Assembly: GCF_000964465.1 (NCBI RefSeq)
Contig: NZ_BANH01000074.1
Span: forward strand, 1 to 53,709
Direction: 5' to 3'
DNA length: 53,709 nt
DNA from: Gluconobacter thailandicus F149-1 = NBRC 100600
Lineage (GTDB): Bacteria; Pseudomonadota; Alphaproteobacteria; Acetobacterales; Acetobacteraceae
Shown here: in pieces, positions 3,584 through 41,558 of the stretch
Layout of the letters: every line of letters starts with the position of its first letter
Numbering within the stretch: the first letter of the stretch is position 1
The notes under the pieces: model-generated
Databases searched by the model: none
Told to the model about the DNA's origin: nothing
The model's input: the letters and a program-made list of their open reading frames with translations, nothing else
Position numbers and translations under genes: made by a program

Positions 3584-3679
3584 AGTGCCAGGACGCGTGT
3601 CAGAAGACTTCGTCCCGGACCGCCCCTATGACCATAGTCATGGTTATGGCTACGCAAAGCATCACAGGCTTTCACGCGG

Positions 3680-5638: not shown

Positions 5639-5664
5639 CTCCGCCCTCGCGCCGGCAAGGGTTC

Positions 5665-5817: not shown

Positions 5818-5838
5818 GCGGAACAAAGGGTAGAGACC

Positions 5839-6519
5839 ATGACCGGCAACACCATCACGGCAACCGATTTCCGCAATACCATTCTCAACGGCGACAGCGT
5901 GGGGCTGATGCGGGCAATGCCGCGCAATACAGTGGATTTCATCCTGACTGATCCGCCTTACCTGGTGAACTATCAGGGCCGGGACGGGCGGAAGGTCCGC
6001 AACGACGACAACGCGCGTTGGCTCCGTCCGGCGGTCAACCAGATGCACCGTGTTCTGAAATATGGCGGTTTCGCCGTCAATTTTTACGGATGGAACAAGA
6101 TCGACCTGTTTGCCGAAGCCTGGAAGGCCGCCGGGTTCCGCATGGTCGGGCATATTGTGTTTCGCAAATCCTATGCGTCATCTTCGGGGTTCCTGCGCTA
6201 CGAGCATGAAAGCGCCTACCTTCTGGCGAAAGGGAACGTAAAGCGGTCCGGTCAGCCGGTACCGGACGTGATCGACATGCCGTATTCGGGCAATAAACTG
6301 CATCCGACGCAAAAGCCGGTGGCGGCGTTGCTGCCCCTGGTGGAAGCGTTCTGCCCGGTGGGCGGTCTGGTTCTGGACCCGTTCGCCGGTTCAGGGTCGT
6401 CGCTGGTGGCGGCGCAGCATTTTGGCCGCGACTGGCTGGGGATGGAACTGGACGCCGAACACGCGGCAACGGCGACCCGGCGCCTGGCCTGGCACGCGGC
6501 GAAGAAGGTGGCGGCATAG
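5839..6519 (+). CDS. Orphan DNA adenine methyltransferase (beta-type, DPPY)
   Basis: This 226-residue protein transfers a methyl group from S-adenosylmethionine to adenine in DNA. The catalytic motif TDPPY is at residues 37-41. NKLHPTQKP (152-160) and the SAM-binding motif DPFAGSGSS (180-188) follow, the order typical of beta-class N6-adenine enzymes. The recognition domain is short and no restriction endonuclease is adjacent, so it is an orphan. Such enzymes are common in this ICE family and may protect the element from host restriction or mark its DNA. AAAGGG lies about 8 nt before the ATG. Confidence 0.9.
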   Translation: MTGNTITATDFRNTILNGDSVGLMRAMPRNTVDFILTDPPYLVNYQGRDGRKVRNDDNARWLRPAVNQMHRVLKYGGFAVNFYGWNKIDLFAEAWKAAGFRMVGHIVFRKSYASSSGFLRYEHESAYLLAKGNVKRSGQPVPDVIDMPYSGNKLHPTQKPVAALLPLVEAFCPVGGLVLDPFAGSGSSLVAAQHFGRDWLGMELDAEHAATATRRLAWHAAKKVAA

Positions 6520-11269: not shown

Positions 11270-12388
11270 ATGGCTGACGTCATGCCGCAACGCGGCCAGC
11301 ACGGGCGGGAGAGTGAGCGGCTGCGCCTCGACCCCTTCGTGATCGCGGGCGGCGATGCCAGTCCCCGCGACCAGCGTGACCTGATGGAGCGGCCGTTCTT
11401 CTCGCTTTCCAAGGCAAAGCGCATTGCCCCGATCCTCTACGAGGCCGGTGGCCAGCGGGTCGAGATTCACGGCCTGGCCGAGCACGGCATGGCGACCATC
11501 TGGGACGCCGATGTGCTGATCTGGGCCGCCTCGCAGATCGTCGAGGCGGAGAATGGCGGCCTCAGGACGTCCCGCTTCCTGCGCTTCACCCCGTACCAGC
11601 TTCTGACGGCCGTCGGCCGTGCCACGGGCGCTCGGGATTATCGCCTGCTCAAGGCCGCATTCGCCCGGCTGCAATCGACCGTGATCCGCACCACGATCCG
11701 TAATGGCGAGCACTGGCGCCGGCACCAGTTCTCCTGGATCAACGAATGGGAGGAACGGACGACCCGCGACGGCCGTGTCGAAGGCATGGAGTGCGTCCTG
11801 CCGGACTGGTTCTATCGCGGCGTCATCGACCGTTCGCTGGTCCTCACCATCGACCCGGCCTATTTCCGCCTGACCGGGGGTATCGAACGCTGGCTCTACC
11901 GCGTCGCCCGCAAACATGCCGGGCACCAGCCGCACGGCTGGCTGTTCGAGATCACGCACCTCCATGAGAAATCCGGCAGCCTAGCGCGTGTCTCCGATTT
12001 CGCGCTCGATTTGCGGCGCATTGTTGGCCGCCAGTCGCTCCCCGGTTATCGCCTCACGATCCGACGCGAAGGACGGCGGAAATTGCTGCATATTCGTCCC
12101 GTCACCTTATCCACAGTGCCTGTGGATGACGGTGTGGATGGACACGGGATTTCGGGCGCAGGGACTATCGGGACTTCGGGCGCATCACTATCGGGATTTC
12201 AGGCGCACGAACTCCAGTTAAGTCTTTGGCCTGAAACGCGGAATCGCGCTCCTAACTTAGAATCTAACTTAGAGTCTAACTTTTTGATGTTGGGGCGACC
12301 GGATACCGACCGTGGTGCCGGTGCCGTCGACAGGCCGGGCGATCCGCGCGCGCGTGGTCTTTCTCCCATGCTGGGAGACGGGTCATGA
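11270..12388 (+). CDS. repA: RepA, replication initiator protein A
   Basis: This 372-residue member of the replication initiator protein A family is found in alphaproteobacterial plasmids and ICEs. The signature begins ERPFFSLSKAKR (about residue 40) and continues with RFLRFTPYQLL, RLKAAFARL-type and WINEWEE segments and ECVLPDWFYRGVID. The C-terminal 80 residues are low-complexity because the DNA there holds repeats: a DnaA box, three 15-bp iterons and AT-rich 12-mers (12107-12285). RepA probably initiates replication of the excised circle. It lies directly after the excisionase gene and overlaps the next gene by ATGA. Confidence 0.88.
   Translation: MADVMPQRGQHGRESERLRLDPFVIAGGDASPRDQRDLMERPFFSLSKAKRIAPILYEAGGQRVEIHGLAEHGMATIWDADVLIWAASQIVEAENGGLRTSRFLRFTPYQLLTAVGRATGARDYRLLKAAFARLQSTVIRTTIRNGEHWRRHQFSWINEWEERTTRDGRVEGMECVLPDWFYRGVIDRSLVLTIDPAYFRLTGGIERWLYRVARKHAGHQPHGWLFEITHLHEKSGSLARVSDFALDLRRIVGRQSLPGYRLTIRREGRRKLLHIRPVTLSTVPVDDGVDGHGISGAGTIGTSGASLSGFQAHELQLSLWPETRNRAPNLESNLESNFLMLGRPDTDRGAGAVDRPGDPRARGLSPMLGDGS
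12107..12285 (+). other. Candidate replication origin (oriV) inside repA: DnaA box, iterons, AT-rich repeats
   Basis: In order there is a perfect DnaA box TTATCCACA (12107-12115) and a near-match on the other strand, TGTGGATGA (12121-12129), with a further TGTGGATGG (12132-12140). Three 15-bp iterons GGGAYTTCRGGCGCA follow at 12146-12160, 12170-12184 and 12193-12207, spaced 24 and 23 bp. Then come AT-rich 12-mers TAACTTAGARTC at 12253-12264 and 12265-12276, and a partial third. This is the layout of an iteron origin with an unwinding element, placed in the 3' coding part of its own initiator gene. Confidence 0.65.
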
Positions 12389-27385: not shown

Positions 27386-28164
27386 CGGAAAAACTTTTCC
27401 GCATCCGGGCAAAACTTTTCCGTCGTATGGGACTGTTCGCATCCGTCACGGCGCTGGCCGTTGGTGCCGGCGTCAGTTCGGTGCAATCCGCCCATGCGCA
27501 ATGGGCGGTCTATGACGGGGCCGCGCATGTCCAGACCGTGCTGATCGCGGCGCGGGAATTGCAGCAGATCGACAACCAGATCACGTCCCTCGCCAATCAG
27601 GCGCAGATGCTGGGCAACCAGGCAAAGAACCTCGCCCTGTTGCCGCTCTCGACATTGTCGACGCTGCAATCGACAATTTCCCAGACGACAGCACTGCTCG
27701 CGCAGGCGCAGAACATCGCCTACAGCGTCACCTCGGTCGAGCAGCAGTACCAGCAGGCCTATACGTCAATTTCGTCGGGGATGTCCGACAGCGCCCTGTT
27801 CAGCCAGGCACAGACACGGTGGCAGAATTCCGTCGACGGGTTCGAGGATGCCCTGAAACTTCAGGCGCGTGTGGTGGGAAACATTCCCTCTGACAGTAGC
27901 GCCATGACCCAACTGGTTTCAGCCAGCCAGACGTCAACCGGGGCGTTGCAGGCGGCACAGGCCGGAAACCAGCTTCTTGCCCTGCAATCCCGCCAGCTTT
28001 CGGACGTGGTCGCGGTCCTGTCCGCCAATGGCCGGGCCGCCGATCTGGAGCGGGCGCGGCAGGCTGCGGTCGAGGCGGAAAGTGCAGCGCAATACGAGCA
28101 TTTTTCCCAATATGATGCCTATAGCCCGACTTCGGTCTCCATGTTCGGCAGCAGCGGGAACTGA
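27382..28164 (+). CDS. trbJ: TrbJ, VirB5-like periplasmic protein
   Basis: This 260-residue protein has a basic N-terminus, a signal peptide ending at SVQSAHAQ (about residue 40) and a long Gln/Ala/Ser-rich helical body, as in TrbJ. It is a minor pilus or periplasmic component needed for mating-pair formation. It overlaps trbE by 4 bp and is followed by trbL after 5 nt, with no trbK-like lipoprotein gene between them. Confidence 0.9.
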   Translation: MTEKLFRIRAKLFRRMGLFASVTALAVGAGVSSVQSAHAQWAVYDGAAHVQTVLIAARELQQIDNQITSLANQAQMLGNQAKNLALLPLSTLSTLQSTISQTTALLAQAQNIAYSVTSVEQQYQQAYTSISSGMSDSALFSQAQTRWQNSVDGFEDALKLQARVVGNIPSDSSAMTQLVSASQTSTGALQAAQAGNQLLALQSRQLSDVVAVLSANGRAADLERARQAAVEAESAAQYEHFSQYDAYSPTSVSMFGSSGN

Positions 28165-28169
28165 CCGCC

Positions 28170-29576
28170 ATGGCCATGAACGATGTCGGCGTTATCGATA
28201 GCTTCCTGAACACCTTTACCACCACCATCGATACGGGGTTCGGTCTGGTGAAGGGGAATGTGATCTCGCTGGCGGGCACTCTGTCGGTGCTGGACATCGC
28301 CCTTGCCGGCCTGTTTTGGGCATGGGCGGCGGACGAGGACATCATCCAGCGTCTGGTGAAGAAGACGCTGTATATCGGGTTCTTCGCCTGGGTCATCAAC
28401 GATTTCGATGCGCTCTCGAAGATCGTCTTCGACAGTTTTGCTGCTCTCGGACTGAAGGTCGGCGGTGGCAGTCTGGCACTCGGAGACTTCCTGCGGCCCG
28501 GTCGACTGGCATCCACGGGCTTCGATGCGGCGCAGCCGCTTCTGGACTCTGTCCACAATCTCCTTGGTCCCGTCGCCTTCTTTACGAATTTCATCCAGAT
28601 CTTCGTGCTCTGTCTGTCCTGGCTGATCGTGCTGGCGGCGTTCTTCATTCTCGCCGTGCAGCTTTTCGTGGCGCTGATCGAGTTCAAGTTGACCACGCTG
28701 GCGGGTTTCATCCTGATTCCGTTCGCCCTGTTCAATCGCACGGCCTTTCTGGCCGAAAAGGTGCTGGGCAATGTTGTTTCATCCGGTGTGAAGATCATGG
28801 TGCTGGCGGTCATTTCCGCCATTGCCTCCGTCCTGTTCCAGCAGTTCTCAACCTCCTACGGCAGCGACGTTCCCACGATCGGACAGGCTGTCTCGGTGGT
28901 GTTGGCCTCATTGGCGATTGTCGGTCTGTCCATTTATGGCGGCAGCATCGCCAATGGTCTGATTTCCGGTGCCCCCCAGCTTGGGACGGGTGCTGCTGTC
29001 GGGACTGGTATGGCCCTCGGTGCCATGGGCGCTGCTGCTGCGGCCGGTGTCGGGGCGGCTGCTTCCGGTGGCGCGGCGGCATTGGGCGCCACGGCGGCTG
29101 CCGCGCGGGGAGGGGCCGCGATCGCGGGTGCAGCCAATACGGCTTATTCCATGGGAGCCATAAATGCTGCCGGTGGCAGTGCCGGTGCCCGTATGGCGGC
29201 TGGTCTGGGCGGTGTCGCCCGGGCGCCGGGCAGTGCTGCCGCAAATGCCGTGAAGAGTAAAATGTCTTCCGCAGCAACCGCCATGAAGCAGAGCTACGGC
29301 GAAGGCGCGCGAGGCGCTTTCACCGCGACGGGCGGACGTTTCACGGGTGGGTTATCGTCCGATGCGAACGGCGGGCGGTCCGGTGATCCGTCAGGTAACG
29401 GCGGCGGGCCAACGGGTGGTGGTGAAGGCGGCAGTCCCGACGGTCAGTCACCCCGCTGGGCGCAAAAGATGAAGCGCCGCAATGCCGCCGCCCATGCTGC
29501 TGAGGCCGCGCATGTCATCCGCTCCGCCGACGGCGGGGGCGGATCTTCCTCCATCGATCTGTCGGAAAAGGAATGA
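28170..29576 (+). CDS. trbL: TrbL, VirB6-type polytopic membrane protein
   Basis: This 468-residue protein has several transmembrane helices from about residue 25 to 265. The Ala/Gly/Ser-rich tail (about 270-468) contains long Ala-Ala-Gly stretches and ends with a hydrophilic segment. This is the TrbL/VirB6 architecture, forming part of the inner-membrane channel. Start ATG 28170 or 28176. It overlaps trbF by 4 bp. Confidence 0.92.
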   Translation: MAMNDVGVIDSFLNTFTTTIDTGFGLVKGNVISLAGTLSVLDIALAGLFWAWAADEDIIQRLVKKTLYIGFFAWVINDFDALSKIVFDSFAALGLKVGGGSLALGDFLRPGRLASTGFDAAQPLLDSVHNLLGPVAFFTNFIQIFVLCLSWLIVLAAFFILAVQLFVALIEFKLTTLAGFILIPFALFNRTAFLAEKVLGNVVSSGVKIMVLAVISAIASVLFQQFSTSYGSDVPTIGQAVSVVLASLAIVGLSIYGGSIANGLISGAPQLGTGAAVGTGMALGAMGAAAAAGVGAAASGGAAALGATAAAARGGAAIAGAANTAYSMGAINAAGGSAGARMAAGLGGVARAPGSAAANAVKSKMSSAATAMKQSYGEGARGAFTATGGRFTGGLSSDANGGRSGDPSGNGGGPTGGGEGGSPDGQSPRWAQKMKRRNAAAHAAEAAHVIRSADGGGGSSSIDLSEKE

Positions 29577-30265
29577 GGACGATGTTCCGTCGCTCCACGG
29601 TGCGCTACGGCACGACGCCGGAGCCGGTTACCCCCTATCAGAAAGCCGCCCAGATCTGGGATGAACGCATCGGTTCCGCCCGCGTGCAGGCCCGCAACTG
29701 GCGGCTGATGGCCTTTGGTAGCCTGTTCCTGTCCACAGGCCTCGGGGCCGGGCTGGTCTGGCAGTCTGCGCGTGGCACCATCACCCCGTGGGTGGTGCAG
29801 GTGGACCGTCTGGGGCAGGCGCAGGTCGTGGCCCCCGCGACAGCGGGCTATATGCCCGCCGATCCGCAGATCGCCTGGTATTTGGCGCAGTTCGTCCACG
29901 ACGTGCGCGCCCTGTCGTCGGACCCCGTTGTGGTCCGGCAGAACTGGCTCCGCGCCTATGATTTCACCACCACGTCGGGCGCGCAGGCGCTTAACGATTA
30001 TGCCCGCCTCAACGATCCGTTCTCGCGGATCGGGCACGAGCAGGTCGAGGTGGACATCGCCTCGGTCATCCGGGCCTCGCCCGGCAGCTTCCGGGTCGCC
30101 TGGACCGAACGCCATTACCGCGACGGCGCGTTCACCGGCACCGAGCGCTGGACCGCCATCGTCTCGGTCGTTCTGCGCACGCCGCGCGACGCCGATCATC
30201 TGCGGAAAAATCCCCTTGGTGTTTTTGTCTCTGCCATCAACTGGTCGAAGGAGCTGGGCCAATGA
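29573..30265 (+). CDS. trbF: TrbF, VirB8-type inner-membrane protein
   Basis: This 230-residue protein has a short cytoplasmic N-terminus with the TrbF motif TPYQKAAQIWDERIGSARVQ, one transmembrane helix (about residues 45-62) and a periplasmic VirB8-like domain with RVAWTERHYRDG. VirB8 proteins nucleate channel assembly. The alternative start ATG 29582 would remove three residues. It overlaps trbL and trbG by ATGA. Confidence 0.92.
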   Translation: MRTMFRRSTVRYGTTPEPVTPYQKAAQIWDERIGSARVQARNWRLMAFGSLFLSTGLGAGLVWQSARGTITPWVVQVDRLGQAQVVAPATAGYMPADPQIAWYLAQFVHDVRALSSDPVVVRQNWLRAYDFTTTSGAQALNDYARLNDPFSRIGHEQVEVDIASVIRASPGSFRVAWTERHYRDGAFTGTERWTAIVSVVLRTPRDADHLRKNPLGVFVSAINWSKELGQ

Positions 30266-31264
30266 TTCGTCGCGCTCTTCGTGTCTTGCCGCTGCTGATT
30301 CTGCCCCTGGCCGGATGCGCGCAGCATTACCATCCGCCGGTCATCCGCTACGATGACGCCGTGCAGGCCACGCGTCTGCCGGACCCGCCGAAACCGGTGC
30401 AGGTGGTGGAGGTGCCACAGCTACTTCCCCTGCCGGGACAGCTCAAGCCGCTGCCCTCACGACGCATCACAACACATCCGGCCCCCGAAGTTGCCGATCC
30501 GACCGCGCGCGTGACGCAGGCCAATCTGGCGGCGCATCCAGCCCACGCGGGCCGGGTTCATCAATGCGGTGCAGGTCTATCCCTATTCTCCGGGCGCTCT
30601 CTATCAGGTTTACACCTCGCCCGGCGAAATCACCGACATCATGCTCCAGCAGGGTGAAAAGCTGGTCGGCACGGGGCCGGTTGCCGCCGGTGACACTGTG
30701 CGCTGGATTATCGGCGATACCGAGAGCGGGGCAGGCGCAACAAAACGCATCCATATTCTGGTCAAGCCGACGCGGCCGGACCTCACTACCAACCTGATCG
30801 TCAACACTGATCGACGGACTTATCTGGCGGAACTGCGCTCCACGTCGGCGACGTACATGGCGTCGGTATCGTGGGATTATCCCGAAGATGATCTCATTGC
30901 CCTGCACCGACAGGACAGGGACGCCGACGAAGCGGCACCGGTGGATGCAGGGCTGGATCTGAACGCGCTGAATTTCCGCTATGCTATCCAGCCGGTGAAA
31001 GGGGGCACGCCGCCCTGGCTGCCCGGCCGGGCCTTCGATGACGGCCACAAGGTCTATATCGCTTTCCCGACCGGGATCGGGCAGGGCGAGCTACCGCCCC
31101 TGTTCGTGCTGGGGGCCGACGGCGGGCCGGAACTGGTCAATTACCGGGTGCGGCAGAACTGGATGATCGTGGACCGGCTGTTCGCTGCCGCCGAACTGCG
31201 GCTGGGCGACAAGCATTCCGAGCAGCGGGTGCGGATCGTACGCACCGATGGCAGGAAGTCATGA
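30262..31264 (+). pseudogene. trbG: TrbG (VirB9-like), frameshifted by 2-bp deletion
   Basis: The first frame (from ATG 30262) has a lipoprotein signal (LILPLAGCAQ) and the TrbG N-terminal region up to ARVTQANLAA. It then turns into unrelated sequence and stops at 30657. The second frame resumes with AGFINAVQVYPYSPGALYQV and is a full VirB9/CagX domain to 31264. Restoring two bases (GC or CG) in GCGGCGCATCC at about 30529-30539 would rejoin the frames. TrbG is an outer-membrane-complex protein essential for transfer, so as read the ICE would be transfer-defective. An assembly error in this GC-rich run must be excluded. Confidence 0.8.
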
Positions 31265-32460
31265 CCGACACGCAGGATCGTCAGGATGGGGGTGAGGACG
31301 TGTCCGGCAACGGAAGCGGATCGGGACCATTATCCCTGCCTTCTCCTCCTGATTTGCGGCTGCGCGCCCAGCGCCCGTCAGTGGTTCGGCTGTCGCGTCC
31401 CGTCATCTGGACATTGGGGGCTACCGGGATGCTCGCGATCGGCCTTGCTCTTGGATACGCGCTGCAAAACAGCACACAGAAAGGGGCGGTCCAGACGGCG
31501 CAGGATACGGACACACGTCCGTCGGCTGACGGGTTGGCCGCATTGCCCAGCGACTACAGTGCCGTCCCGAAGCTCGGACCGCCCTTGCCTGGCGATCTTG
31601 GTAAGCCGATCCTCGACGCTCAGAAGGAAGGCCGCGCGGGACCAGTTTCGGGCATTGGAGATCGTCGGGGCGATCAGGAGATTGAGGCGGCCCGCACCAG
31701 TAAGCTCTTTGCCCAGGTCGAGGGGCACGATGGCCAGACCGCGCAGACAATGCCGGGGCAAGCAGCGTCCGGAACACGGGCATCACCGACCGCCACGGAC
31801 CAGCAGGCCGGCAATCGCGCTTTTCTGGCGGGTCAGCCTGACCGCGCGACGCTCAGCCCCGATCGGATCGCGCTCCCTGCTTCGCCCTATCTTCTGCAGG
31901 CCGGGACCGTCGTCGCCGGAGCGCTAAATACGAAGATCAGCTCTGATCTGCCGGGCCAGATTACCGGCCATGTGACCCAGAACGTCTATGACAGCCCGAC
32001 CGGCCGTTATCTGCTGATCCCGCAGGGCAGCACGCTGTTCGGAGCCTATAACAGCGGGATTTCTTTCGGGCAGCAGCGCACCCAGATCATCTGGACGCGG
32101 CTGATCTATCCGAACGGCGAAAGCCTCGTTCTGGAAAAGCTGCCCGGTGGCGACGCCATCGGCCAGTCCGGTCTGTCTGACGAGGTGAACAACCACTGGG
32201 GCCAACTCTTCAGGGCTGCCCTTGTTACCACCCTCCTCAGCGTGGGTTCCGAAGCCGGGACGGCATGGAACGAGAATAACCTGATGCAGGCGATCCGCAG
32301 CGGGGCATCGAACGGTTTTTCAATGGTCGGCAACCGCCTGATTGATCGCAGCCTCAATGTCCAGCCGACGCTGACAGACCGGCCCGGTCTGCCGTTCACG
32401 CTCATTCTGAATCGCGACCTCGTCCTCCAGCCTTGGAAAGAGGACAAATCTCGCCCATGA
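31261..32460 (+). CDS. trbI: TrbI, VirB10-type channel protein
   Basis: This 399-residue protein has one transmembrane helix (about residues 47-63), a Gly/Pro/Gln-rich linker and a C-terminal TrbI/VirB10 beta-barrel domain (YLLQAGTVVAGALNTKISSD, LIPQGSTLFGAYNSG, WTRLIYPNGESLVL). It spans the envelope and links the ATPases to the outer-membrane pore. It overlaps trbG and the DUF2274 remnant by ATGA. Confidence 0.93.
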   Translation: MTDTQDRQDGGEDVSGNGSGSGPLSLPSPPDLRLRAQRPSVVRLSRPVIWTLGATGMLAIGLALGYALQNSTQKGAVQTAQDTDTRPSADGLAALPSDYSAVPKLGPPLPGDLGKPILDAQKEGRAGPVSGIGDRRGDQEIEAARTSKLFAQVEGHDGQTAQTMPGQAASGTRASPTATDQQAGNRAFLAGQPDRATLSPDRIALPASPYLLQAGTVVAGALNTKISSDLPGQITGHVTQNVYDSPTGRYLLIPQGSTLFGAYNSGISFGQQRTQIIWTRLIYPNGESLVLEKLPGGDAIGQSGLSDEVNNHWGQLFRAALVTTLLSVGSEAGTAWNENNLMQAIRSGASNGFSMVGNRLIDRSLNVQPTLTDRPGLPFTLILNRDLVLQPWKEDKSRP

Positions 32461-32558
32461 CGAAGCTGAAGCTCGGTCCGATCGAGGATGACAAACCCCT
32501 GAAATCACGTTGGAGTCGCCTGGCGTGCGTCACCGTGATCTTGCGCGCCTATACCTAG
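32457..32558 (+). pseudogene. Broken DUF2274 gene, last of the trb operon
   Basis: The start MTKLKLGPIEDDKPLK is the standard opening of the DUF2274 protein that follows trbI in this ICE family. After codon 16 the family sequence continues in another frame (ITLESPGVRHRDLARLY). The gene then ends where the 19-bp palindrome at 32556 begins, about 50 residues short. A frameshift and a truncation are both present. Confidence 0.7.
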
Positions 32559-32597
32559 AGCATTTCAATCGAACACAGGTTCGATTGAAATGCTCTA
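32556..32597. terminator. Perfect 19-bp palindromic hairpin at the end of the trb operon
   Basis: TAGAGCATTTCAATCGAAC (32556-32574) pairs perfectly with its complement at 32579-32597 around ACAG. ATTTGTTATTTTT follows. It can act as an intrinsic terminator, in both directions in part. It starts exactly at the stop codon of the DUF2274 remnant and marks the edge of the A+T-rich cargo, so it may also be a mobile palindromic repeat or fused insertion-element ends. Confidence 0.65.
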
Positions 32598-32698
32598 ATT
32601 TGTTATTTTTACGAGCATCTTCACCTGTTCGCACGCACACATTTAAACAGGATCTGCCCTAGCGGCTAACTCACGTCCGTTTATTGTTAATGCAGAAT

Positions 32699-33229
32699 CT
32701 AAAAGGAGCGTTGGTAAGAATATTCGTTCGCCAAACGAAGTGACATGGCATGCACACTAACATCAAAAATTTCGGCGAGCCGGTTCACTTGGTCGTCATC
32801 AGTTAGAGCTTCAAAAGCGTTCATTCGGTCTAGAAATGGCCTAGGCATAAGAATTGATGCAGCAAAAAAATTCGCTTCTATTTCCTCGATATCGGTCGCT
32901 TCGGATGATTTGCGATCTCGGTAATTTACCCGAAATCCAACATCAGTATGTGACTGAAGATCGTGATGAAGCAAAAAATGACCAAATTCGTGCGCCAATG
33001 TGAATCTTTGGCGCGTATGTGCCTGTATTGAGTTCACACCGACGATAGTATGCCGACCCTGCCTAGCGATAAGTCCGGACACTTCGCCTAAATCACCAAA
33101 TTTAATATCGATACCGCTGGCAGAAAGCAGATCCTGAATGGGAACTGGTGCTACTTTTACATTAAATCGGTCCAACAACGAAATTGTTAGATGCCGTATC
33201 TTGGTATAGCGCGCACGTTGAATGCTCAT
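32699..33229 (-). CDS. ImmA/IrrE-family zinc metallopeptidase
   Basis: This 176-residue protein has the zinc-binding motif HEFGHFLLH at about residues 80-88 and a downstream helix DIEEIEANFFAASILMP that supplies the third ligand. ImmA-type peptidases cleave a partner XRE repressor. The partner gene lies directly upstream with a 4-bp overlap. In ICEBs1 such a pair controls excision and transfer. Here the pair is divergent from the ubiquitin-like cassette and may regulate it instead. A+T-rich codon use differs from the trb genes. Confidence 0.85.
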   Translation of the reverse strand: MSIQRARYTKIRHLTISLLDRFNVKVAPVPIQDLLSASGIDIKFGDLGEVSGLIARQGRHTIVGVNSIQAHTRQRFTLAHEFGHFLLHHDLQSHTDVGFRVNYRDRKSSEATDIEEIEANFFAASILMPRPFLDRMNAFEALTDDDQVNRLAEIFDVSVHAMSLRLANEYSYQRSF

Positions 33230-33531
33230 GACGAAGTTATGCTTGAAGTTGTTTCAAGTTTTTCTAACAAAGCAGTCACCTCAGTTGACCGCCTGCGGTA
33301 GCGAGGTTCTGGAGCTAGCATATCAGGAAGAAGATCTTTTGCTGACAAACCTAAAGCCGCTGCCGCCAGATATAAATGATATAGTGAGATAGGTTGTTTG
33401 CCTTTTTCAATGTTCGTGACCGAAGTGCGAGACAGGCCTAACGCTGCCGCCAACACGGATTGCGACATGCCTAATGCTTCGCGGTTAGTTCTTATAGCCG
33501 CGCCGACGAGAGCATTGGTTTGATCGATCAT
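33226..33531 (-). CDS. XRE-family repressor paired with ImmA-like peptidase
   Basis: This protein of about 101 residues has an XRE helix-turn-helix (about residues 10-65: IRTNREALGMSQSVLAAALGLSRTSVTNIEKGKQPIS, given here as one continuous helix pair). ATG 33531 follows GGAGGT by 3 nt and is preferred to the longer frame from 33561. The C-terminal tail is Leu/Thr/Ser-rich and may be the cleavage region. A 15-bp palindrome overlaps its ribosome binding site, suggesting autoregulation. Confidence 0.82.
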   Translation of the reverse strand: MIDQTNALVGAAIRTNREALGMSQSVLAAALGLSRTSVTNIEKGKQPISLYHLYLAAAALGLSAKDLLPDMLAPEPRYRRRSTEVTALLEKLETTSSITSS

Positions 33532-33535
33532 GGCA

Positions 33536-33550
33536 CCTCCAAGTTGGAGG
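33536..33550. promoter_or_regulatory. 15-bp palindrome over the XRE ribosome binding site
   Basis: CCTCCAA (33536-33542) and TTGGAGG (33544-33550) are perfect arms around one G. On the minus strand the GGAGGT ribosome binding site of the XRE gene is within the proximal arm. It may serve as an operator or as a small hairpin that hides the site. It is 143 bp from the start of the divergent Ubl gene. Confidence 0.5.
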
Positions 33551-33692
33551 CATTTGTACATTAAAATGACTCACGGTGTCAATAAGGCTGACATGTTGGT
33601 GTGGCAAACATTTAAATTAAATGATTACAAGATTGACAGTTCACCGTCTCCCAGTTTATCCAACGACTCAATGATACACGGGAGCTTAAAGT

Positions 33693-34229
33693 ATGAATGA
33701 CGAACCTAAGCCGGAGAAAAGCGATCGTATTGAGCGAGACGCTGAGGACATTGTGGAAGCGGGTCGCGAGCTAGCAGAAGCTCGTGAGCGTGAACTGAAG
33801 ATTTCTGAAGAAGAAGCGTTGATAGATGCTGAACTCGTGGAGCTTCAGCGTAGAAAAGCTGAACTGGAGCAGAAGAAGCGTGAAGCACAGGAAACTGAGG
33901 TAAAGGAGGAGCAGCGTATTGCTGAAGACCTTTGCGATATCCAGAATAATCATGGCCAGAATGGAAATGGCGGAAGTCCCGGTCCCTTTAAGGGTGAGGT
34001 AACTATTACCATTAACACTGTAGATTTCGAGGAGCCGAAGGGCACGATTTCTTATCAGCGTGTGGTTGAGCTAGCTTACCCTGACTTCGCGTCCTTTCCC
34101 AAGGCAACATATAGCATTATGTATGAACGCGGCCCGAAAGCCAATCTGCAGGGAGTGCTGAGTAAGGGCGGTTCTGTCAAAATTGACGAAGGGATGCGGT
34201 TTCGTGTCAAACGCACCGGCGAATCTTAA
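33693..34229 (+). CDS. Ubiquitin-like (multiubiquitin-type) domain protein with coiled coil
   Basis: This 178-residue protein has a charged coiled coil (about residues 10-85, rich in Glu/Lys/Arg) and a Gly/Asn linker (about 86-98). It ends in a C-terminal domain of about 75 residues starting VTITINTVDFEEPKG. That domain resembles the prokaryotic multiubiquitin fold in its opening beta hairpin, GxxxYxxMYERGP-like centre and closing FRVKR strand. The chain ends in RTGES, without the diglycine used for conjugation. GGGAG lies 8 nt before the ATG. It is first in an operon with an E1-like and a DUF6527 gene, which is the main support for the ubiquitin-like reading. Confidence 0.68.
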   Translation: MNDEPKPEKSDRIERDAEDIVEAGRELAEARERELKISEEEALIDAELVELQRRKAELEQKKREAQETEVKEEQRIAEDLCDIQNNHGQNGNGGSPGPFKGEVTITINTVDFEEPKGTISYQRVVELAYPDFASFPKATYSIMYERGPKANLQGVLSKGGSVKIDEGMRFRVKRTGES

Positions 34230-35364
34230 GGGCTTGGAAGGCCTGCTTGCTCGCAGGTATTCCTTGTCGGTGATAAGTGAACATCTTGTCGTCAACGATG
34301 TTTGGTATGTTGATACCAATGGCGAGTTGCAGCAGGGGCATCTCGCCGCCCCGCTGACTAAAATTGATCAATCGACGATCGGTGCACCAAAAAACCACCA
34401 GATGTATTGGAGTGGAACTGCGCCCTGCAATGCTGATCGATCGTTAATTCCTTTTGGATCTCATTCGGCCAATATATCTATTGGTGAGGTTAATTATTCT
34501 TCAAATCTTTCTAATAAGCCTCCATATCCTGAAGTGTTCTCTACCTATGAAGATTTGGTGATGCATTATGTCACGCTAGTCTCGGGTCCCGCAGAGCAGT
34601 TATTTGGAGCCTCATCTCAAACCGGGGCCGAATATGATGTACCGGAAGAAACTTCACCATTTAAGGTGGCGGATACTTTTTCTGCTTGTGCGCAAATAAA
34701 CGATCTTAATCAGCGTGTCGCGGACGATCGAATTGCAATTATCGGTTTAGGAGGCACCGGGGCGTTCGTATTGGATTTTATGGTTAAGACGCCGGTTTAT
34801 TCAATTGACGCTTATGACTTCGATGTATTCCAAGTTCATAACGGCTTTCGGGCTCCCGGAGAGGTGCCGTTTGAATTCTTCGGGCAGCCAAAGATTGCTC
34901 TATATAAAAAGAAATATGATAACTTTAGACATCATTTACGTTTTCATAACAAGCGTATCGAAGCGGGAGATGACGCTCTATTTTCTGATATCACATTCGC
35001 ATTTGTCTGTATTGATGATGGGGAAAGTAGAAGAAATATTTGCGAAATGCTCATGGCGCAAAAAATACCTTTCATCGATGTTGGTATGGGGGTTGAAAAA
35101 GAACAAGGTCGTCTCGATGGGCTTCTCCGAACGACACTTTTTACAGAAAAAACATATGAGCGAGCGAAAGAGGCTGTGCCTTTCGACAGGGCCGATGAGG
35201 CGGGAGCATACCGCGTCTTTGTACAAATTGCGGAACTTAATGCACTTAACGCCGCTATGGCAGTTGTAAAATATAAGCAAATCAAAGGTTTCTATGCCGA
35301 TGATCCTAATTATTTTAACTCTCTTCTGTCAATTGGATCATCAAATTGGGTAGGAGAGAGTTGA
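34204..35364 (+). CDS. ThiF/E1-like adenylyltransferase with N-terminal DUF6791-type domain
   Basis: This protein of about 386 residues has an N-terminal domain (about residues 1-150: LEGLLARRYSLSVISEHLV, VWYVDTNGELQQG, LSNKPPYPEVFSTYEDLV) like the DUF6791 region of bacterial E1 proteins. The ThiF fold follows, with the nucleotide loop IAIIGLGGTGAFVLD (about residues 179-193), DAYDFDVFQVHNGFRAPG and FVCIDDGESRRNICEML. E1 enzymes adenylate the C-terminus of a ubiquitin-like protein. GTG 34204 is chosen; TTG 34183 or 34234 are possible. It overlaps the Ubl gene, and TGATG couples it to the next gene. Confidence 0.8.
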   Translation: MSNAPANLKGLEGLLARRYSLSVISEHLVVNDVWYVDTNGELQQGHLAAPLTKIDQSTIGAPKNHQMYWSGTAPCNADRSLIPFGSHSANISIGEVNYSSNLSNKPPYPEVFSTYEDLVMHYVTLVSGPAEQLFGASSQTGAEYDVPEETSPFKVADTFSACAQINDLNQRVADDRIAIIGLGGTGAFVLDFMVKTPVYSIDAYDFDVFQVHNGFRAPGEVPFEFFGQPKIALYKKKYDNFRHHLRFHNKRIEAGDDALFSDITFAFVCIDDGESRRNICEMLMAQKIPFIDVGMGVEKEQGRLDGLLRTTLFTEKTYERAKEAVPFDRADEAGAYRVFVQIAELNALNAAMAVVKYKQIKGFYADDPNYFNSLLSIGSSNWVGES

Positions 35365-35756
35365 TGTATAGGCTTGCCAACGTTGAACGCTTTCCGAAAG
35401 TGATCGAGTCAGGGATATTGTATTGGTCACAGGAATATGAAATGAGCGCTCACCGTTGCGCATGCGGTTGCGGTGATGTCATTCAATTGCCCGTGGATGA
35501 ATTGAATTTTCGGATTACGCAAGACTCCCAAGGCGTTACTCTTCGCCCTTCTGTAGGAAACTGGGGAGTATGTGATGCGCATTATTACATCACTAATGGT
35601 CGAGTCGAATGGCTAGAGCAGATGTCGCCAGCTGCGATTGCCGCTGGACGTCAGGCAGAGGATGATCGGCGTAAGAATTATTACTCGCGTCAACAGTCTT
35701 GGGTAAAGCGTGTACGTAATTGGTTTGGTAATCTTAAGAAGCGTATTTTTGGATAA
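35364..35756 (+). CDS. DUF6527 zinc-binding protein
   Basis: This 130-residue protein has a cysteine cluster HRCACGCGD (about residues 29-37) and a later WGVCDAHYYI with Cys and His, consistent with a treble-clef or similar zinc site. The basic C-terminal tail has YYSRQQSWVKRVRNWFG and KKRIF. DUF6527 genes are found beside bacterial multiubiquitin/E1 genes; the role is unknown. The start ATG 35364 overlaps the E1 stop. It is the last gene before the right ICE end. Confidence 0.78.
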   Translation: MYRLANVERFPKVIESGILYWSQEYEMSAHRCACGCGDVIQLPVDELNFRITQDSQGVTLRPSVGNWGVCDAHYYITNGRVEWLEQMSPAAIAAGRQAEDDRRKNYYSRQQSWVKRVRNWFGNLKKRIFG

Positions 35757-35820
35757 TAATACAGAAAAAAGATAATTTTGTATGCTTTTGACAAATATTT
35801 TTCTATATTATAAATATTAG

Positions 35821-35858
35821 TGGTTGTTGGTATCGGGGGCTGCGTGCCCCCGCAACCA
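35821..35858. repeat. Imperfect inverted repeat ending at attR
   Basis: TGGTTG (35821-35826) pairs with CAACCA (35853-35858), and CGGGGGC (35834-35840) pairs with GCCCCCG (35846-35852). A 7-nt bulge lies between on the left. The arm next to the core is thus an inverted copy of the core itself. This may be part of the recombinase site. A GATACCGAC at 45-53 and GATACCAAC on the minus strand (35834-35826) also recur at the two inner ends in opposite orientation. Confidence 0.55.
35845..35858. other. attR core
   Basis: This is the second exact copy of TGCCCCCGCAACCA, identical to the tRNA-fMet 3' end at 29-42. Chromosomal sequence with its own terminator (35887-35916) follows. Confidence 0.8.
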
Positions 35859-35886
35859 TCTGAACTTGCGATGCGAACGCATCACG

Positions 35887-35916
35887 AACCCCAGCCCGGA
35901 AACAGACTGGGGTTTT
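35887..35916 (+). terminator. Native tRNA-fMet terminator displaced by the ICE
   Basis: AACCCCAG (35887-35894) pairs with CTGGGGTT (35907-35914), followed by TTTTCG from 35913. It lies 29 bp after attR, the distance expected for the original terminator of tRNA-fMet before integration. Confidence 0.7.
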
Positions 35917-36016
35917 CGTTTGTCCGCCGATGTGAGCTTAAAACGCTCAGTCAACCGGTACATAGCCGTAGCAAGTCCACTCTCTGCACACATTTGAGAC
36001 CCGATCCGAAACTGCG

Positions 36017-36181
36017 GGCAGGCTCACCGCGTGGATCGCTCACCATAACGGGCTGCGTCTGCATTCAGCATTTTGGCCGGGCGCCCAACGAAAAGCGTAT
36101 CATTACGCGCCAATGTCACTGGGCCTGGGGTTAACTCCGGACCCAGTGGCCAACAGCAACGCCGTCAAAATGGCAGCATGA
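36017..36181 (+). pseudogene. Possible remnant of an IS3-type transposase C-terminus
   Basis: This frame reads RLTAWIAHHNGLRLHSAF followed by AQRKAYHYAP and a stop at 36181. It resembles the end of IS3-family transposases (W-I-x-x-x-N-x-x-R-L-H-S-A). No start, catalytic region or terminal repeats are visible. The rest of the 523-bp gap 35859-36381 holds the terminator at 35887 and the promoter region of the next gene. Confidence 0.35.
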
Positions 36182-36337
36182 CATCAAACGGGCATAGCCC
36201 GTCAGGCCGGCAATACTGTCCGAAAAAATGGGACAACTTCTTTCTTTGGGGTAAGAGTATATCTTTTCCCCTTCTGAAAAAATTAGGGACAAACTCTGTT
36301 AACAAAGCTACTAAAATTTTTGGTGCATTAAAAATGA

Positions 36338-36353
36338 TATCCTGTTTAGGATA
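36338..36353. promoter_or_regulatory. Dyad upstream of the XRE-cupin regulator
   Basis: TATCCT (36338-36343) and AGGATA (36348-36353) form a perfect 6-bp dyad around GTTT, 28 bp before the start codon of the regulator gene and near its likely -10. It is a candidate autoregulatory operator; no experimental site is known to me. Confidence 0.35.
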
Positions 36354-36381
36354 GTGCACACGAAATAAGCGATGGTACGCA

Positions 36382-36924
36382 ATGGATATTGGTGGAACGC
36401 TCTATGAGCTTCGAACGCGACGCGGGCTTTCCCAGCGCGAGTTGGCCCGGCGTTGTGGTGTTGCAAACGGAACAATTTCTCTCATTGAATCGAATGCAAT
36501 AAACCCATCGGTCGGATTGCTGCGGCAGATCGTCGATGCATTTCCAATGTCACTTTCAGAATTTTTTGCCTTCGAGCAGGCAGAAGAGCGAAAGCTTTTT
36601 TACAAGGCCGTCGAGTTGCGGGACATTGGGGGACGAGGTATTTCGCTGCGGCAGGTTGGAACCTCCATGAACAACCGTGCATTGCAGATTTTAAACGAGA
36701 CCTATGCGCCTCGGACGGACACCGGGAAGACCATGCTCCAGCACAAAGGTGAAGAAGGGGGCGTTATCGTCCGGGGAGAGTTGGAAGTCACGGCGGGAGA
36801 TCAGCGCGCGATCCTCGGGCCAGGAGATGCTTACTATTTTGACAGTAACATTCCCCATCGTTTCCGGAACATAGGTAACGAGCCATGTCATTTAATAAGT
36901 GCGTCTACGCCGCCTAGTTTTTGA
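36382..36924 (+). CDS. PuuR-like XRE regulator with C-terminal cupin
   Basis: This 180-residue protein has an XRE helix-turn-helix (about residues 5-62: LYELRTRRGLSQRELARR, NGTISLIESNAINPS) and a cupin domain (about 105-178: EEGGVIVRGELEV, GDAYYFDSNIPHRFRN). PuuR of E. coli has this layout and responds to putrescine. Here the neighbours oxidise amines and aldehydes, which fits an amine- or aldehyde-sensing role, but the ligand is inferred. It is convergent with the cytochrome gene and overlaps its end by 11 bp. Confidence 0.83.
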   Translation: MDIGGTLYELRTRRGLSQRELARRCGVANGTISLIESNAINPSVGLLRQIVDAFPMSLSEFFAFEQAEERKLFYKAVELRDIGGRGISLRQVGTSMNNRALQILNETYAPRTDTGKTMLQHKGEEGGVIVRGELEVTAGDQRAILGPGDAYYFDSNIPHRFRNIGNEPCHLISASTPPSF

Positions 36925-38104
36925 AGCTCTCGGGTTTGATTGGGGCTTGAATACCTCCGAAGTGGTCAAGCAAGTACTCTGATATTGCCGTCAATTCCTG
37001 GGGTGTATAAGCCTTTGTAAACGAAGGCATTGCCATTTTTCCATGCTCAGTCTTGATTGATGTGCCGGTTCGAAGCACAGCTATGATGTTGGTGGCCGCA
37101 GGATCGCTCAAACTGTGCGCACCTTCCAAAGCTCCCCAGTCAGACTGTCGCCCGGCCCCATTTTCAAGATGGCATCCCATGCACGCCTGTTGAAAAATAT
37201 GCCGGCCCACGTCCTCATTCTCCCCGCTTGCACCTGGCACGCGTTTTCCACGTTGTGGTCCGTTGGAACGGGCAGGGATGCTTCGCAGGTAAACAATCAT
37301 GGCACGGATATCTTCTGCAGGCAGATATCGCAGGCTATTTTTGATTGCTTCGGCCATCGGACCGGAGGCCGGTCCGCGGTGAGGGGCATAACCCGTAGAA
37401 AGATATTCGAAAAGCTCACTGTCGCTCCAACCACCAAGCCCGTGTTCGGTATCTGATGTCAGATTATAGGCTCTCCACCCGACCTGGACTGTTCCGGCAT
37501 AAGCCTTGCCGCTCAGTCCGAACATGAAGTTGCGTGGCGTATGGCATTGATCGCAATGCCCAAGTGCTTCCACAAGATAGGCCCCTCGGTTCCATTCCGG
37601 CGTTCGGTGCGGATCCGTAGTCATCCTTCGGTTTGGATTGTTGAACCAATTCCAGAAAGTCATTACCCAGCGTTGGTTGAAAGGAAAGGGTAAGCGGTTT
37701 TCTGGTGCCTTGGCCTGAACTGGCTTGAGAGTGAAGAGATAGGCCTTGATGGCCAACGTGTCAGCGTCGTTCAGGAATGTATAAGATGTGTAAGGCATGA
37801 CGGGATAGAGATGCCGCTCGTTCCGATCGACACCAGTGCGCATCATTCTAAGCCATTGCTCGTCCGTATAAGCCCCGATGCCTGTCTCGCGATCAGGTGT
37901 AATATTCACGGCATAAACTGTGCCGAAAGGGAGAGAAAAAGCCTTTCCTCCTGACAAGGTCTGACCATCGCTGGAAAGGTGACAGGCCGCACAGTCAGCC
38001 GCCCGGAACAGAGTTTTTCCCTGTTCAATCAGGTCAGTTTGTGCCTGTGCTGATCGAGCGGAGATTGCCATAATGACTGCGAAGAAAAGCAGAAAATACT
38101 TCAT
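36914..38104 (-). CDS. Triheme cytochrome c subunit of membrane dehydrogenase
   Basis: This 396-residue periplasmic protein has a signal peptide (residues 1-22) and three CxxCH heme sites: CAACH (about 38), CDQCH (about 186) and CMGCH (about 312). The last two segments resemble the cytochrome subunits of acetic-acid-bacterial alcohol, aldehyde and gluconate dehydrogenases. It is the third gene of the operon with the [2Fe-2S] and molybdopterin subunits (overlap ATGA), so it takes electrons from them and passes them to ubiquinone or another cytochrome. Confidence 0.9.
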   Translation of the reverse strand: MKYFLLFFAVIMAISARSAQAQTDLIEQGKTLFRAADCAACHLSSDGQTLSGGKAFSLPFGTVYAVNITPDRETGIGAYTDEQWLRMMRTGVDRNERHLYPVMPYTSYTFLNDADTLAIKAYLFTLKPVQAKAPENRLPFPFNQRWVMTFWNWFNNPNRRMTTDPHRTPEWNRGAYLVEALGHCDQCHTPRNFMFGLSGKAYAGTVQVGWRAYNLTSDTEHGLGGWSDSELFEYLSTGYAPHRGPASGPMAEAIKNSLRYLPAEDIRAMIVYLRSIPARSNGPQRGKRVPGASGENEDVGRHIFQQACMGCHLENGAGRQSDWGALEGAHSLSDPAATNIIAVLRTGTSIKTEHGKMAMPSFTKAYTPQELTAISEYLLDHFGGIQAPIKPESFKN

Positions 38105-40272
38105 GTGCTTTTTCCCGCTATCTGAGGAACAAATGGAATCCTACGCAGACGACGGCCTGTAGCAGCAAAAATGGCATTTGCCAGGGCTGGGGCAGCGGCT
38201 ACCGTGCCGACTTCTCCGATGCCTCCAATATCCGCCGAGAGATCTGGCACCAGATGCACTCTGATATCGGGTGCCTCATTAATACGCATCATGCGATAGT
38301 CGTGAAAATTACTTTGGTCTACTCGGCCATTTGTTACAGTAATTTCGTTGTAAAGGGCCATTGTCAGGCCAAAGATCAGTCCACCCTGGATCTGAGCTTT
38401 AATAGCATCCGGGAAAACGATTGGACCACAATCTACGGCAGTATCTGCCCAGATCAGGCGGATGTCATTATCTCTTGTAACGCGGACTTCCAGAACCGTC
38501 GCTGCCCAGGTCTGAAAAGAATAATGGAGGGCGATGCCTCGTCCATGACCAGCAGGAAGCGGCGTTCCCCACCCAGATTTGCTTGCAGCCTCGTTCAGAA
38601 CTTTCAGGCCTCGTGGTGAATGACCCAGCATAGACCGGCGGAAGTCGAGAGGATCGGTTTCAGCAAGATGCGCCAGTTCATCTATCATCCCTTCCACAAC
38701 AAATATGTTATGGGTAGGTCCCACGCCGCGCCACCATAAAGTTGTCAGCCCTTCAGGTTCGCATTGAACGGATTCATTTCTCTGGGCGGGAATGGCGTAG
38801 GGCGTCTCAGTGGCGCCATCGACCGTATCTGTATCTAGGCCGTTTTGAAGTCCCTCCGGTGCCCACCTTGTCGTTACGTATGATCCGGTTGTGCGGTGTT
38901 TCCAGGCTGCAATCCGTCTCTGTTTATTCAGTCCCGCAGAGATCCGGTCATAGTAAAAAGGGCGAAACTGGTCCTGCTGAATATCTTCTTCGCGTGTCCA
39001 GAACAGTTTTACGGGATAGGAAATCTGTTTCGCGAGCCTGGCTGCCTGACCGATCGATCCTGAATCCAGCCTGCGCCCGAACCCTCCACCAATAACGTGG
39101 TTATGAATGGCGATTTTTTCTGGAGGCAAGCCGGTCGCGTTAGCAACTTCCTGCCGTGCCCGAACAGGAACCTGTGTCCCAACCCATACATCTGCGCCGT
39201 CTGGCCGGATATGAAGGGTTGTATTGATAGGTTCCAGTGCCGCATGAGCGAGGAATGGGAGTTCATAGACGGCGTCAATTTGGTGCGAACAGGCTGCTAA
39301 CGCAGCGTCAACGTCTCCGGTATTCTTCGCAACCAGCCCCGTTCTGTCTGAAGCCCTTCGCAGGTCATCCATAAGAATTTTTGTAGAGACCGCAGCGTGC
39401 GGACCGGGATCCCATTGCGGATTTGCCGCTTCCAGCCCTTTGATAGCTGCCCAGCTATGGTCACCAATGACAGCAATAACATCAGGAAGCGTTATAATAT
39501 CCACAACCCCAGCGATGGCTCGTACTGCGACGCTGTCATAACTGATCAGCCGTCCTCCCTGAACCGGGCTGGCCATGATGCGGCCGATCTTCATACCGGG
39601 AACGCGCACGTCCATCCCGAAAATGGCAGTGCCGTTACTTTTTGGCTTGGTATCAAGTCTTTGAGGGCTTGTTCCAATAAGGCGGAATGTTGAAGGATCT
39701 TTCAAAATGATTTTTTCAGGCACCTTCTGAAGGGCGGCTTCCTCCGCCAGATCTCCATAAGATAAGGTCCGGCCGGTTAGTACATGAATGATCTGTCCGT
39801 GCTGCGCGGCACAACTCTTCGGTAGCACGTTCCAGCGTGCCGCAGCCGCTGCCACCAGCATGATCCGTGCGGCGGCACCTGCCTGCCTGAGAGGGAGCCA
39901 GCTATCCCGTGTAGAGGCTGAGCCTCCGGTCACTTCCTCGCCCGCGGCACTATCCGTATAACGGGAAGGGTCAGCAGGGGCGGCTTCAAGTACGACCTGT
40001 TCCAGGTCGACTTCCAGCTCTTCTGCGATCAGCATCGCGATCCCAGTGTAAATGCCCTGTCCCATTTCCGCATGACGCATGATGAGAGTGATCCCGCCAC
40101 TACGATCAATCCGAATGAATGCATTGGGATTGAAAACGCCTCCTGTATCAGCCTGCGCACCAGGCAATCCAGGGATCATGCCCGAAAGAAGCATTCCTCC
40201 ACCCAACGCAAGGCTTCCCTGGAAAAAGGCACGGCGGTTCAATACCGCTCCGATATCGCGTGGCTTAGGCAT
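38101..40272 (-). CDS. Molybdopterin-binding large subunit of IorB/aldehyde dehydrogenase type
   Basis: This 723-residue protein has a twin-arginine signal ([15 protein letters not shown], residues about 12-26), showing export in folded form. It has the xanthine-oxidase-family molybdenum-binding motifs [27 protein letters not shown] and [18 protein letters not shown], whose Glu is the likely catalytic base. The start ATG 40272 overlaps the small subunit by 8 bp. Relatives oxidise aldehydes, isoquinoline or nicotinate with water as oxygen source. With the neighbouring amine dehydrogenase, an aldehyde is the likely substrate (inference). Confidence 0.88.
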
Positions 40273-40720
40273 TGTTGGCGGCCTGATGGATTGCTTCCCG
40301 GATACGGACATAAGTTCCGCAGCGGCAGATATTTCCGGACATAGCGTCGTCAATATCATCGTCTGTAGGGTTCGGATTGTCTCTAAGCAGAGCTGTCGCA
40401 GCCATGATTTGTCCGGACTGGCAATATCCGCACTGGATAACCTGATTCTGTAACCAGGCTGCCTGTATGCGGGCTCCTTCTTTAGTATTGCCAATCGCTT
40501 CAATTGTCGTGATGTGACGATCGCCAATCAGCGAGACGGGAAGCTGGCATGCTCTGGCCGGAATTCCATCGATGTGGATCGTGCACGCTCCGCATTGAGC
40601 GACACCGCATCCATATTTCGTGCCTGTCAGACCGAGGATATCCCGTAGTACCCAGAGAAGGGGCATGTCATCGGTCACATCAAGCTGATGCGATTCGTTG
40701 TTAACACGGATCGTTATCAT
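40265..40720 (-). CDS. [2Fe-2S] small subunit of the molybdenum dehydrogenase
   Basis: This 151-residue protein has two iron-sulfur sites: the plant-type cluster [14 protein letters not shown] with a later Cys (about residues 38-60), and the C-terminal CGYCQSGQI plus CRCGTY (about 97-134). This is the standard small subunit of the IorA/CoxS type. It shuttles electrons from the molybdenum centre to the triheme cytochrome. It is first in the operon, divergent from petA across 181 bp. Confidence 0.9.
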
Positions 40721-40901
40721 TTTGACCCAACCTCCGCTTCGTGAATTTCAATTGATTCTGAACAGATATGACTTTCCTACCATCCCCAGCAAATGATCGG
40801 ATTGCAAGAACATTGCTGGGGAGCGAATAAAACAGTTGTTTAAGATTGACACCATTTCGTTGCCCTTGGATGATCATAACAGCTTATTCGAGTAGGATCC
40901 G

Positions 40902-41558
40902 ATGACCAAGGACGGCGCACCGACTTCTTCCAGTAATCAGTGTTCATCAGGCAGAGGAGGGACCCGACGACGTGACGTACTTGCGACCGTGACAGCAGGA
41001 GTGGGGTGTGCGGGTGCCTGTGCTTTGGCTTATCCCTTTCTGGATAGTTTGAACGGAACGCGGAACAGTCGTGTAGGGGAAGATGACACGGTCGATGTTG
41101 ATCTTTCTGCAATTCCGCCTGGACAGCAGGCCGTCGTGACATGGCGGGGCTGGCCTGTTTTTGTGCAACGCCGAACGGCCGCTATGCTTGCGTCGTTGCA
41201 GGCTCTTGGCGCAGCGCAACGTTTGCGGGACCCAGAGTCTAAAATCCTTCAGCAACCCAAGGATGCAACCAACTGGCATCGCTCTGTCGTGCCTGAAATT
41301 GGTGTGCTGATTGGAATATGTACCCATCTAGGCTGCGTACCATCCTACGATACTCCATCTCCTTCGGACCAGTCCGGGAAATATGCCTGCCCTTGTCATG
41401 GGTCGCAGTTTGATATTGCCGGCCGCGCCTACAAGAATGCGCCTGCACCCTATAATCTGCCGGTTCCGCCTGTCACCATGGTTTCGGCGACCCATCTTCG
41501 TATCGGGCAAAGCAAAGGCGATCCCGACTTCGATATTGCCAACATCCAGCAGATCTGA
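40902..41558 (+). CDS. petA: Rieske iron-sulfur protein of the bc1 complex
   Basis: This 218-residue protein has a Tat-type anchor (RRRDVLATVTAGVG, residues about 22-35) and one transmembrane helix. The [2Fe-2S] ligands are in CTHLGC (about 145-150) and CPCHGS (about 170-175). It oxidises ubiquinol and passes electrons to cytochrome c1. It is first of three bc1 genes; petB follows after 9 nt. The insertion in front of the cluster domain (about residues 95-130) is usual for alphaproteobacteria. Confidence 0.92.
   Translation: MTKDGAPTSSSNQCSSGRGGTRRRDVLATVTAGVGCAGACALAYPFLDSLNGTRNSRVGEDDTVDVDLSAIPPGQQAVVTWRGWPVFVQRRTAAMLASLQALGAAQRLRDPESKILQQPKDATNWHRSVVPEIGVLIGICTHLGCVPSYDTPSPSDQSGKYACPCHGSQFDIAGRAYKNAPAPYNLPVPPVTMVSATHLRIGQSKGDPDFDIANIQQI

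Follow-up and report, generated by a model that had tools for sequence, protein, structure and literature searches.

A compact ubiquitin-like cassette of Gluconobacter thailandicus that fits the non-JAB branch of bacterial class 6e operons

Bacterial conjugation systems built on ubiquitin-like (Ubl) proteins include BilABCD, which has an E2 and a JAB peptidase, and the Bub pathway, which is said to work via oxyester chemistry. Structures of BubA, BubB and BubCD are available as PDB entries 9EA4, 9EA5, 9EA8, 9EAE and 9EAV (Ye 2026, in its accessible part). The accessible text of PMC13373217 places CapW or the CapH+CapP pair at 219 of 544 Bub operons and states that protection against phage by these operons has not so far been demonstrated. 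Class 6e operons were described earlier (Iyer 2006, PMC1779556) and, in the available portion of that account, include a branch in which an unnamed domain takes the place of JAB on the E1.

The locus considered here lies in a 53,709-nucleotide stretch of Gluconobacter thailandicus F149-1 = NBRC 100600 (NZ_BANH01000074.1; contig C118 of the 3.43-Mb genome), which we refer to in its entirety as the window. Three tightly coupled genes make up the cassette, as a first-pass annotation of the DNA had proposed, and the open reading frames bear out their order and coordinates. The features discussed below are as follows.

32699-33229, minus strand: CapP-like ImmA/IrrE peptidase (capP 5.5e-31 in PADLOC; Peptidase_M78 1.1e-19)
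33226-33561, minus strand: CapH-like HTH repressor (capH 1.5e-8 in PADLOC; HTH_3 7e-13)
33693-34229, plus strand: Ubl gene, 178 aa (Multi_ubiq E=1.2e-8; PDB 9cd2 E=1e-4)
33720-33944, plus strand: charged, helical N-terminal part of the Ubl protein, residues 10-84 (from composition and periodicity)
33999-34226, plus strand: C-terminal Ubl domain, residues 103-178 (Multi_ubiq)
34204-35364, plus strand: E1-like gene with a GTG start inside the Ubl gene, 386 aa (DUF6791 and ThiF)
34215-34226, plus strand: Ubl tail T-G-E-S, signature T-x-x-S (from the alignment of family tails)
34234-34677, plus strand: DUF6791 domain, E1 residues 11-158 (PF20590 E=1.2e-22), in the N-terminal place held by JAB in BubCD
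35209-35211, plus strand: codon of E1 Tyr336, candidate oxyester nucleophile (Tyr in 75/75; profile-aligned with BubCD Tyr370)
35364-35756, plus strand: DUF6527 gene, 130 aa (PF20137 E=2.6e-19)

The ubiquitin-like C-terminal domain proposed for the first gene is upheld by the Pfam match of Multi_ubiq to residues 103-175 and by PDB 9CD2, a multi-ubiquitin domain protein, which matches the full-length protein at the value listed above and the domain alone at E=2.7e-5. The assignment of the third gene to DUF6527 holds equally. For the middle gene, the identity stands, with both DUF6791 and ThiF (E=1.3e-9) matched by Pfam, but the start does not: GTG at 34204, rather than TTG at 34183, is probably used, because an E1 start codon with a 26-nt overlap of the Ubl gene—the overlap present in the window—is found in 77 of 93 loci. 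At the other end of this gene, its stop codon and the ATG of the DUF6527 gene have one base in common. The cassette is also A+T-richer than the adjoining conjugation gene, as had been remarked, with a GC content of 0.44-0.50 for cassette and regulators versus 0.63 for the TrbI gene.

The Ubl-E1-DUF6527 arrangement is a widespread module; in genomes the family is rare. A genome scan with the E1 alignment returned at least 557 stretches encoding a relative, and in every one of the best 80 loci, which were kept, a Ubl gene lies upstream and a DUF6527 gene downstream of the E1; the co-occurrence on which the first-pass annotation had staked its reading is thus borne out among them. The same order recurs in all 12 plasmid loci fetched first, the E1 having matched 114 plasmid records by tblastn, and one further plasmid relative, the thirteenth, comes from Acidiphilium multivorum (Acetobacteraceae) and has the same three genes by annotation. 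One or two module genes are in pieces at six of the 80 genome loci, and at L075 the pieces of DUF6527 lie 2.4 kb apart. As to rarity, DUF6791 occurs in one of 299 genomes of the order, that one being the window's own, and in 8 of 398 genomes of the phylum; E1 relatives were found in 7 of 385 genomes of the class. Phage records searched by tblastn held no E1 relative at E<=1e-5, and viral contigs searched with the window E1 gave no match. In two marine alphaproteobacterial plasmid relatives (L005 and L007), the Ubl gene is separated from the regulator pair by a DUF2188 gene (3493-3714 in each).

A conjugative-element setting, also put forward in the earlier reading, is supported by the neighbouring genes, which encode a large serine recombinase, a RepA-type initiator, TraG-like proteins, TrbI and a DUF3363 protein that we take to be a relaxase. 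Placement of the cassette beside attR fared less well. No tRNA was found as evidence of attR, and no exact direct or inverted 16-bp repeat links 32-37.5 kb to the remaining window. What can be seen is only a break in collinearity with one congener (G136) at 36278: rightwards the two are 93% identical to 41425, where the compared stretch ends, and to the left G136 has no match in the window. Because collinearity ends there, a junction lies ~520 bp beyond the cassette; a search of the window's own genome with the G136 flank (~7.9 kb of it past this junction) found no left junction. The sequence at 35984-36240, between cassette and chromosome, resembles multi-copy sequences (~72-76% identity) that several genomes of the genus carry, and is probably a remnant of an IS or other repeat. 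At 11270-12388, inside the conjugative element, lies a replication initiator (PF10134 RPA, E=1.3e-82), which suggests that the element is an integrated plasmid or a replicating ICE.

Upstream of the cassette, the divergent XRE/ImmA pair noticed in the first-pass annotation proved to consist of defence-type regulators. The best PADLOC match of the peptidase is capP, and the HTH protein matches a restriction control-protein model (3.2e-11) better than it does capH. Among relatives, up to two divergent upstream ORFs were taken per locus, giving 119 ORFs at 67 of the 80 loci; 117 of these, from 66 loci, were scanned, and 36 had capP-like and 22 capH-like matches (E<=1e-5).

That the Ubl protein ends in RTGES rather than GG had been read correctly, and the T-x-x-S end is a signature of the whole family. 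Thr occupies position -4 in 93 of 93 loci and Ser is the C-terminal residue in 92, the remaining one having Ala. When 22 representatives with less than 60% identity were drawn from 90, Thr and Ser were each retained in all 22. The 26-nt gene overlap does not account for this tail, since T-x-x-S is kept in 13 of 13 unbroken loci inspected that lack the overlap.

Neither an E2 nor a JAB gene had been seen near the cassette, and this extends, at sequence level, to its relatives. Profiles built from 11 BubB-type E2 sequences and 12 JAB sequences had no match at E<=0.01 in the ORFs of L001-L093, a set that includes the 80 genome and 12 plasmid loci, or of window positions 28001-41000. As a control on independent loci, both profiles match L139 and L140, and the JAB profile matches L177 and L179, where the upstream DNA is too short for E2. 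At L123 and L127, two divergent JAB-type loci, the E2 profile likewise matches nothing, so the lack of a match does not prove that an E2 fold is absent.

The E1 belongs in the company of BubCD. Its AF2 model (pLDDT 91.7) has Citrobacter BubCD structures as nearest PDB neighbours (best 9eav, E=1.4e-13), and the residues of the adenylation-domain motif are invariant in 75 of 75 sequences. The E1 profile also matches MccB (E=9.1e-5), a ThiF-fold enzyme that adenylates a C-terminal Asn and is a precedent for a non-Gly peptide end. No Cys is invariant in the E1, the best column being Cys in 78 of 87. Tyr336 is Tyr throughout the DUF6791-type E1s (75/75), just as Tyr370 is in JAB-type E1s (11/11), and HHalign of the E1 profiles of both branches (probability 98.9, E=2e-17) sets one opposite the other. 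MAFFT, by comparison, puts Tyr336 on a different column, with Tyr in 8 of 12 JAB-type E1s, and leaves Y370 opposite a gap in 75 of 75 DUF6791-type sequences; in the AF2 model, Tyr336 falls within a low-confidence loop, residues 332-337. The window E1 departs from the family at two near-invariant sites, L118 (Lys in 74/75) and F339 (Asn in 72/75). Among JAB-type relatives, the Citrobacter braakii plasmid protein L133 carries a JAB domain on its E1, with Asp at 104 and Tyr at 370, and the adjoining Ubl gene carries a C-terminal Prok-E2_E domain. The title of 9EAV names mutations at residues 104 and 370 of BubCD.

Two domains of less obvious function complete the cassette. In DUF6791, H65, S103 and Y122 are conserved in 75 of 75 sequences and K105 in 72, a pattern which suggests that the domain may be active. 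DUF6527, an eight-stranded protein with a long C-terminal helix in its AF2 model (pLDDT 92.5), has no PDB match at E<=0.001, and HHalign of its profile with JAB and E2 found no match. All 75 sequences share His30, Cys32, Cys34, Cys36, Ser63, Cys70 and His73, of which C32, C36, C70 and H73 form a candidate metal site. Residue 30 is His in 87 of 87 proteins of this branch; in 14 JAB-type DUF6527 proteins, read by eye, its place is never held by His, and that of Cys34 is held by Cys in 7. A branch-fixed His30 together with Cys34 would fit an additional catalytic function of DUF6527. The window protein departs from the family at A72, a near-invariant Ser (71/75). DUF6527 is present in 14 of 19 JAB-type loci, so its presence cannot be explained just as a substitution for JAB. 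The term DUF6527 does not appear in the literature searched.

An unusual chemistry is suggested by the T-x-x-S tail, by the profile-aligned Tyr and by the failure to recognise an E2 or a JAB. We give an even chance to the proposal that the cassette is a Ubl conjugation module that is induced by DNA damage and dispenses with E2 and JAB, representing the DUF6791 branch of Bub and class 6e operons. In such a module, phage or DNA damage would yield ssDNA, upon which the CapP-like peptidase would cleave the CapH-like repressor and turn the operon on, by homology to CapH+CapP (PMC13373217, accessible text). The ThiF domain, judging from its fold and invariant residues, would adenylate the carboxyl end of the Ubl. 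The Ubl may then pass to Tyr336 as an oxyester, a step suggested by the invariant Tyr aligned with BubCD Tyr370, by the want of an invariant Cys and by the reputed oxyesters of Bub. With its strict C-terminal Ser and variable -3 position, the activated end would most likely be Thr-x-x-Ser itself rather than a trimmed Gly. By elimination, DUF6791 and DUF6527 would between them take over substrate choice, transfer and removal from BubB and JAB. The fully specified version of this scheme—a modifier activated at its C-terminal Ser by a Tyr-oxyester E1 and transferred without E2 or JAB, with DUF6527, which has the branch-specific His30 and the branch-invariant Cys34, as the enzyme of transfer or removal—is tentative. 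We count against the scheme the low-confidence loop that holds Tyr336, the MAFFT placement, the Gly at -3 in 72 of 93 tails, the lack of an E2-profile match at L123 and L127, the departures of the window proteins at near-invariant sites, and what PMC13373217 says of Bub operons and phage.

Ordinary Bub chemistry would be retained if DUF6527 or DUF6791 were a peptidase that cut T-G-x-S behind the Gly, leaving a BubA-like Gly end, an alternative that we regard as possible though doubtful. Because position -3 is Gly in 72 of the 93 tails, trimming could apply to most members. Gly is the final residue in five of the six stand-alone JAB-type Ubls that were inspected (L124, L125, L131, L135 and L136), the exception being L127; in Citrobacter L133 a Gly stands at 229, the last residue of the solved BubA(155-229) construct, and Iyer 2006 (PMC1779556), in its available portion, speculated that the domain replacing JAB might act like JAB. 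Yet Gly at -3 is found in only 6 of the 22 diverse representatives, and Ser is the very last residue in nearly every tail, which an endopeptidase site would not require. A different possibility, compatible with the other steps of the Ser-end scheme, makes DUF6791 a strongly diverged BubB-like E2 fused to the E1. By eye, the order of elements is alike and a QR-x-S-like stretch is present; a single untrimmed HHalign run gave a collinear alignment of 70 columns with a score of 16.1, and the AF2 model comprises a helix, six strands and a long helix. The HHalign probability is nevertheless 0.6%, and the trimmed-alignment score is at chance, being reached by 29 of 100 column shuffles and 31 of 37 rotations, with JAB scoring higher; nor is any E2 or JAB family among the 25 Pfam families (of 28) listed for 75 DUF6791 members. 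We consider such an E2 rather unlikely. Profile comparison does not bear out the E2-like pattern seen by eye, and HHalign gave no support for DUF6791 as a JAB either.

It is also conceivable, if improbable, that the cassette encodes a regulated oligomer or scaffold, in which the Ubl and its N-terminal part assemble noncovalently and the E1 and DUF6527 only modify the tail. Bacterial Ubl oligomerization is reported in the title of Gong 2025, and the window Ubl does have a charged N-terminal part: residues 10-84 are 60% D/E/K/R/Q and keep a single heptad register in 6 of 7 sliding windows. The coiled coil seen there by the first-pass annotation is upheld as to charge and register but not statistically, for its periodicity was equalled by 237 of 2000 shuffles. 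Relatives speak against a scaffold, since in 65 of 91 the Ubl domain is preceded by fewer than 25 residues (starts being set by a simple rule), and so does the invariance of the adenylation-domain motif. Several other relatives have longer N-terminal regions, and L085 is the sole genome locus with a comparable charged extension (43 residues; by composition). Being uncommon in relatives, the coiled coil was ruled out as the core mechanism, and the assembly or scaffold role built on it was overstated; a coiled coil here, plausible but not proven, would be an uncommon and weakly supported addition. At L085, the E1 and DUF6527 reading frames are in pieces (4962-6154).

If the Ser-end scheme is true, the cassette would carry out Ubl conjugation with very few parts, three genes without E2 or JAB, and its non-Gly modifier end would widen the range of ends known for E1-like activation. 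The invariant tail, Tyr336, His30 and Cys34 offer direct mutational handles, by which the roles of DUF6791 and DUF6527 become testable.

Compared with BilABCD, likewise a bacterial Ubl conjugation system, the cassette loci stand apart in that neither its E2 nor its JAB peptidase was found in them. Kinship with Bub is closer. Both have a Multi_ubiq Ubl, with Ubl-domain profiles of the branches matching in part (44 columns, probability 65, E=5.9e-5), a homologous E1 domain, in which the place of Tyr370 is taken by Tyr336 in the HHalign alignment and by a gap in that of MAFFT, a DUF6527 gene (HHalign E=1.5e-20 between branches) and DNA-damage regulators. They differ in that the cassette E1 carries DUF6791 where JAB is fused to BubCD, and neither JAB nor, at sequence level, BubB (Prok-E2_E) was found in cassette loci; DUF6527 has His at residue 30 throughout the cassette branch and in none of the 14 JAB-type proteins read; and the cassette Ubl ends in T-x-x-S whereas the Bub Ubl ends in Gly, a difference with which a trimmed Gly end is compatible. 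The ZDHYS365 protein of PDB 9CD2, a solved polyUbl chain, shares the tail type, its C-terminal Ubl ending T-D-K-S, and differs in its length of 222 residues, of which the last 80 align. As far as the available portion of Iyer 2006 extends, the non-JAB branch of class 6e has a Ubl, an E1 with an N-terminal non-JAB domain and a small C-x3-C metal-binding protein, as does the cassette, which differs in its single Ubl with a charged N-terminal extension; DUF6791-E1 loci also occur in Mesorhizobium, a genus that PMC1779556 names. We infer that the JAB-replacing domain of that account is DUF6791. The layout fits the non-JAB branch of the 2006 class 6e operons, and the cassette is a sister of the Bub pathway: as a kind it is not new, and as a variant it is.
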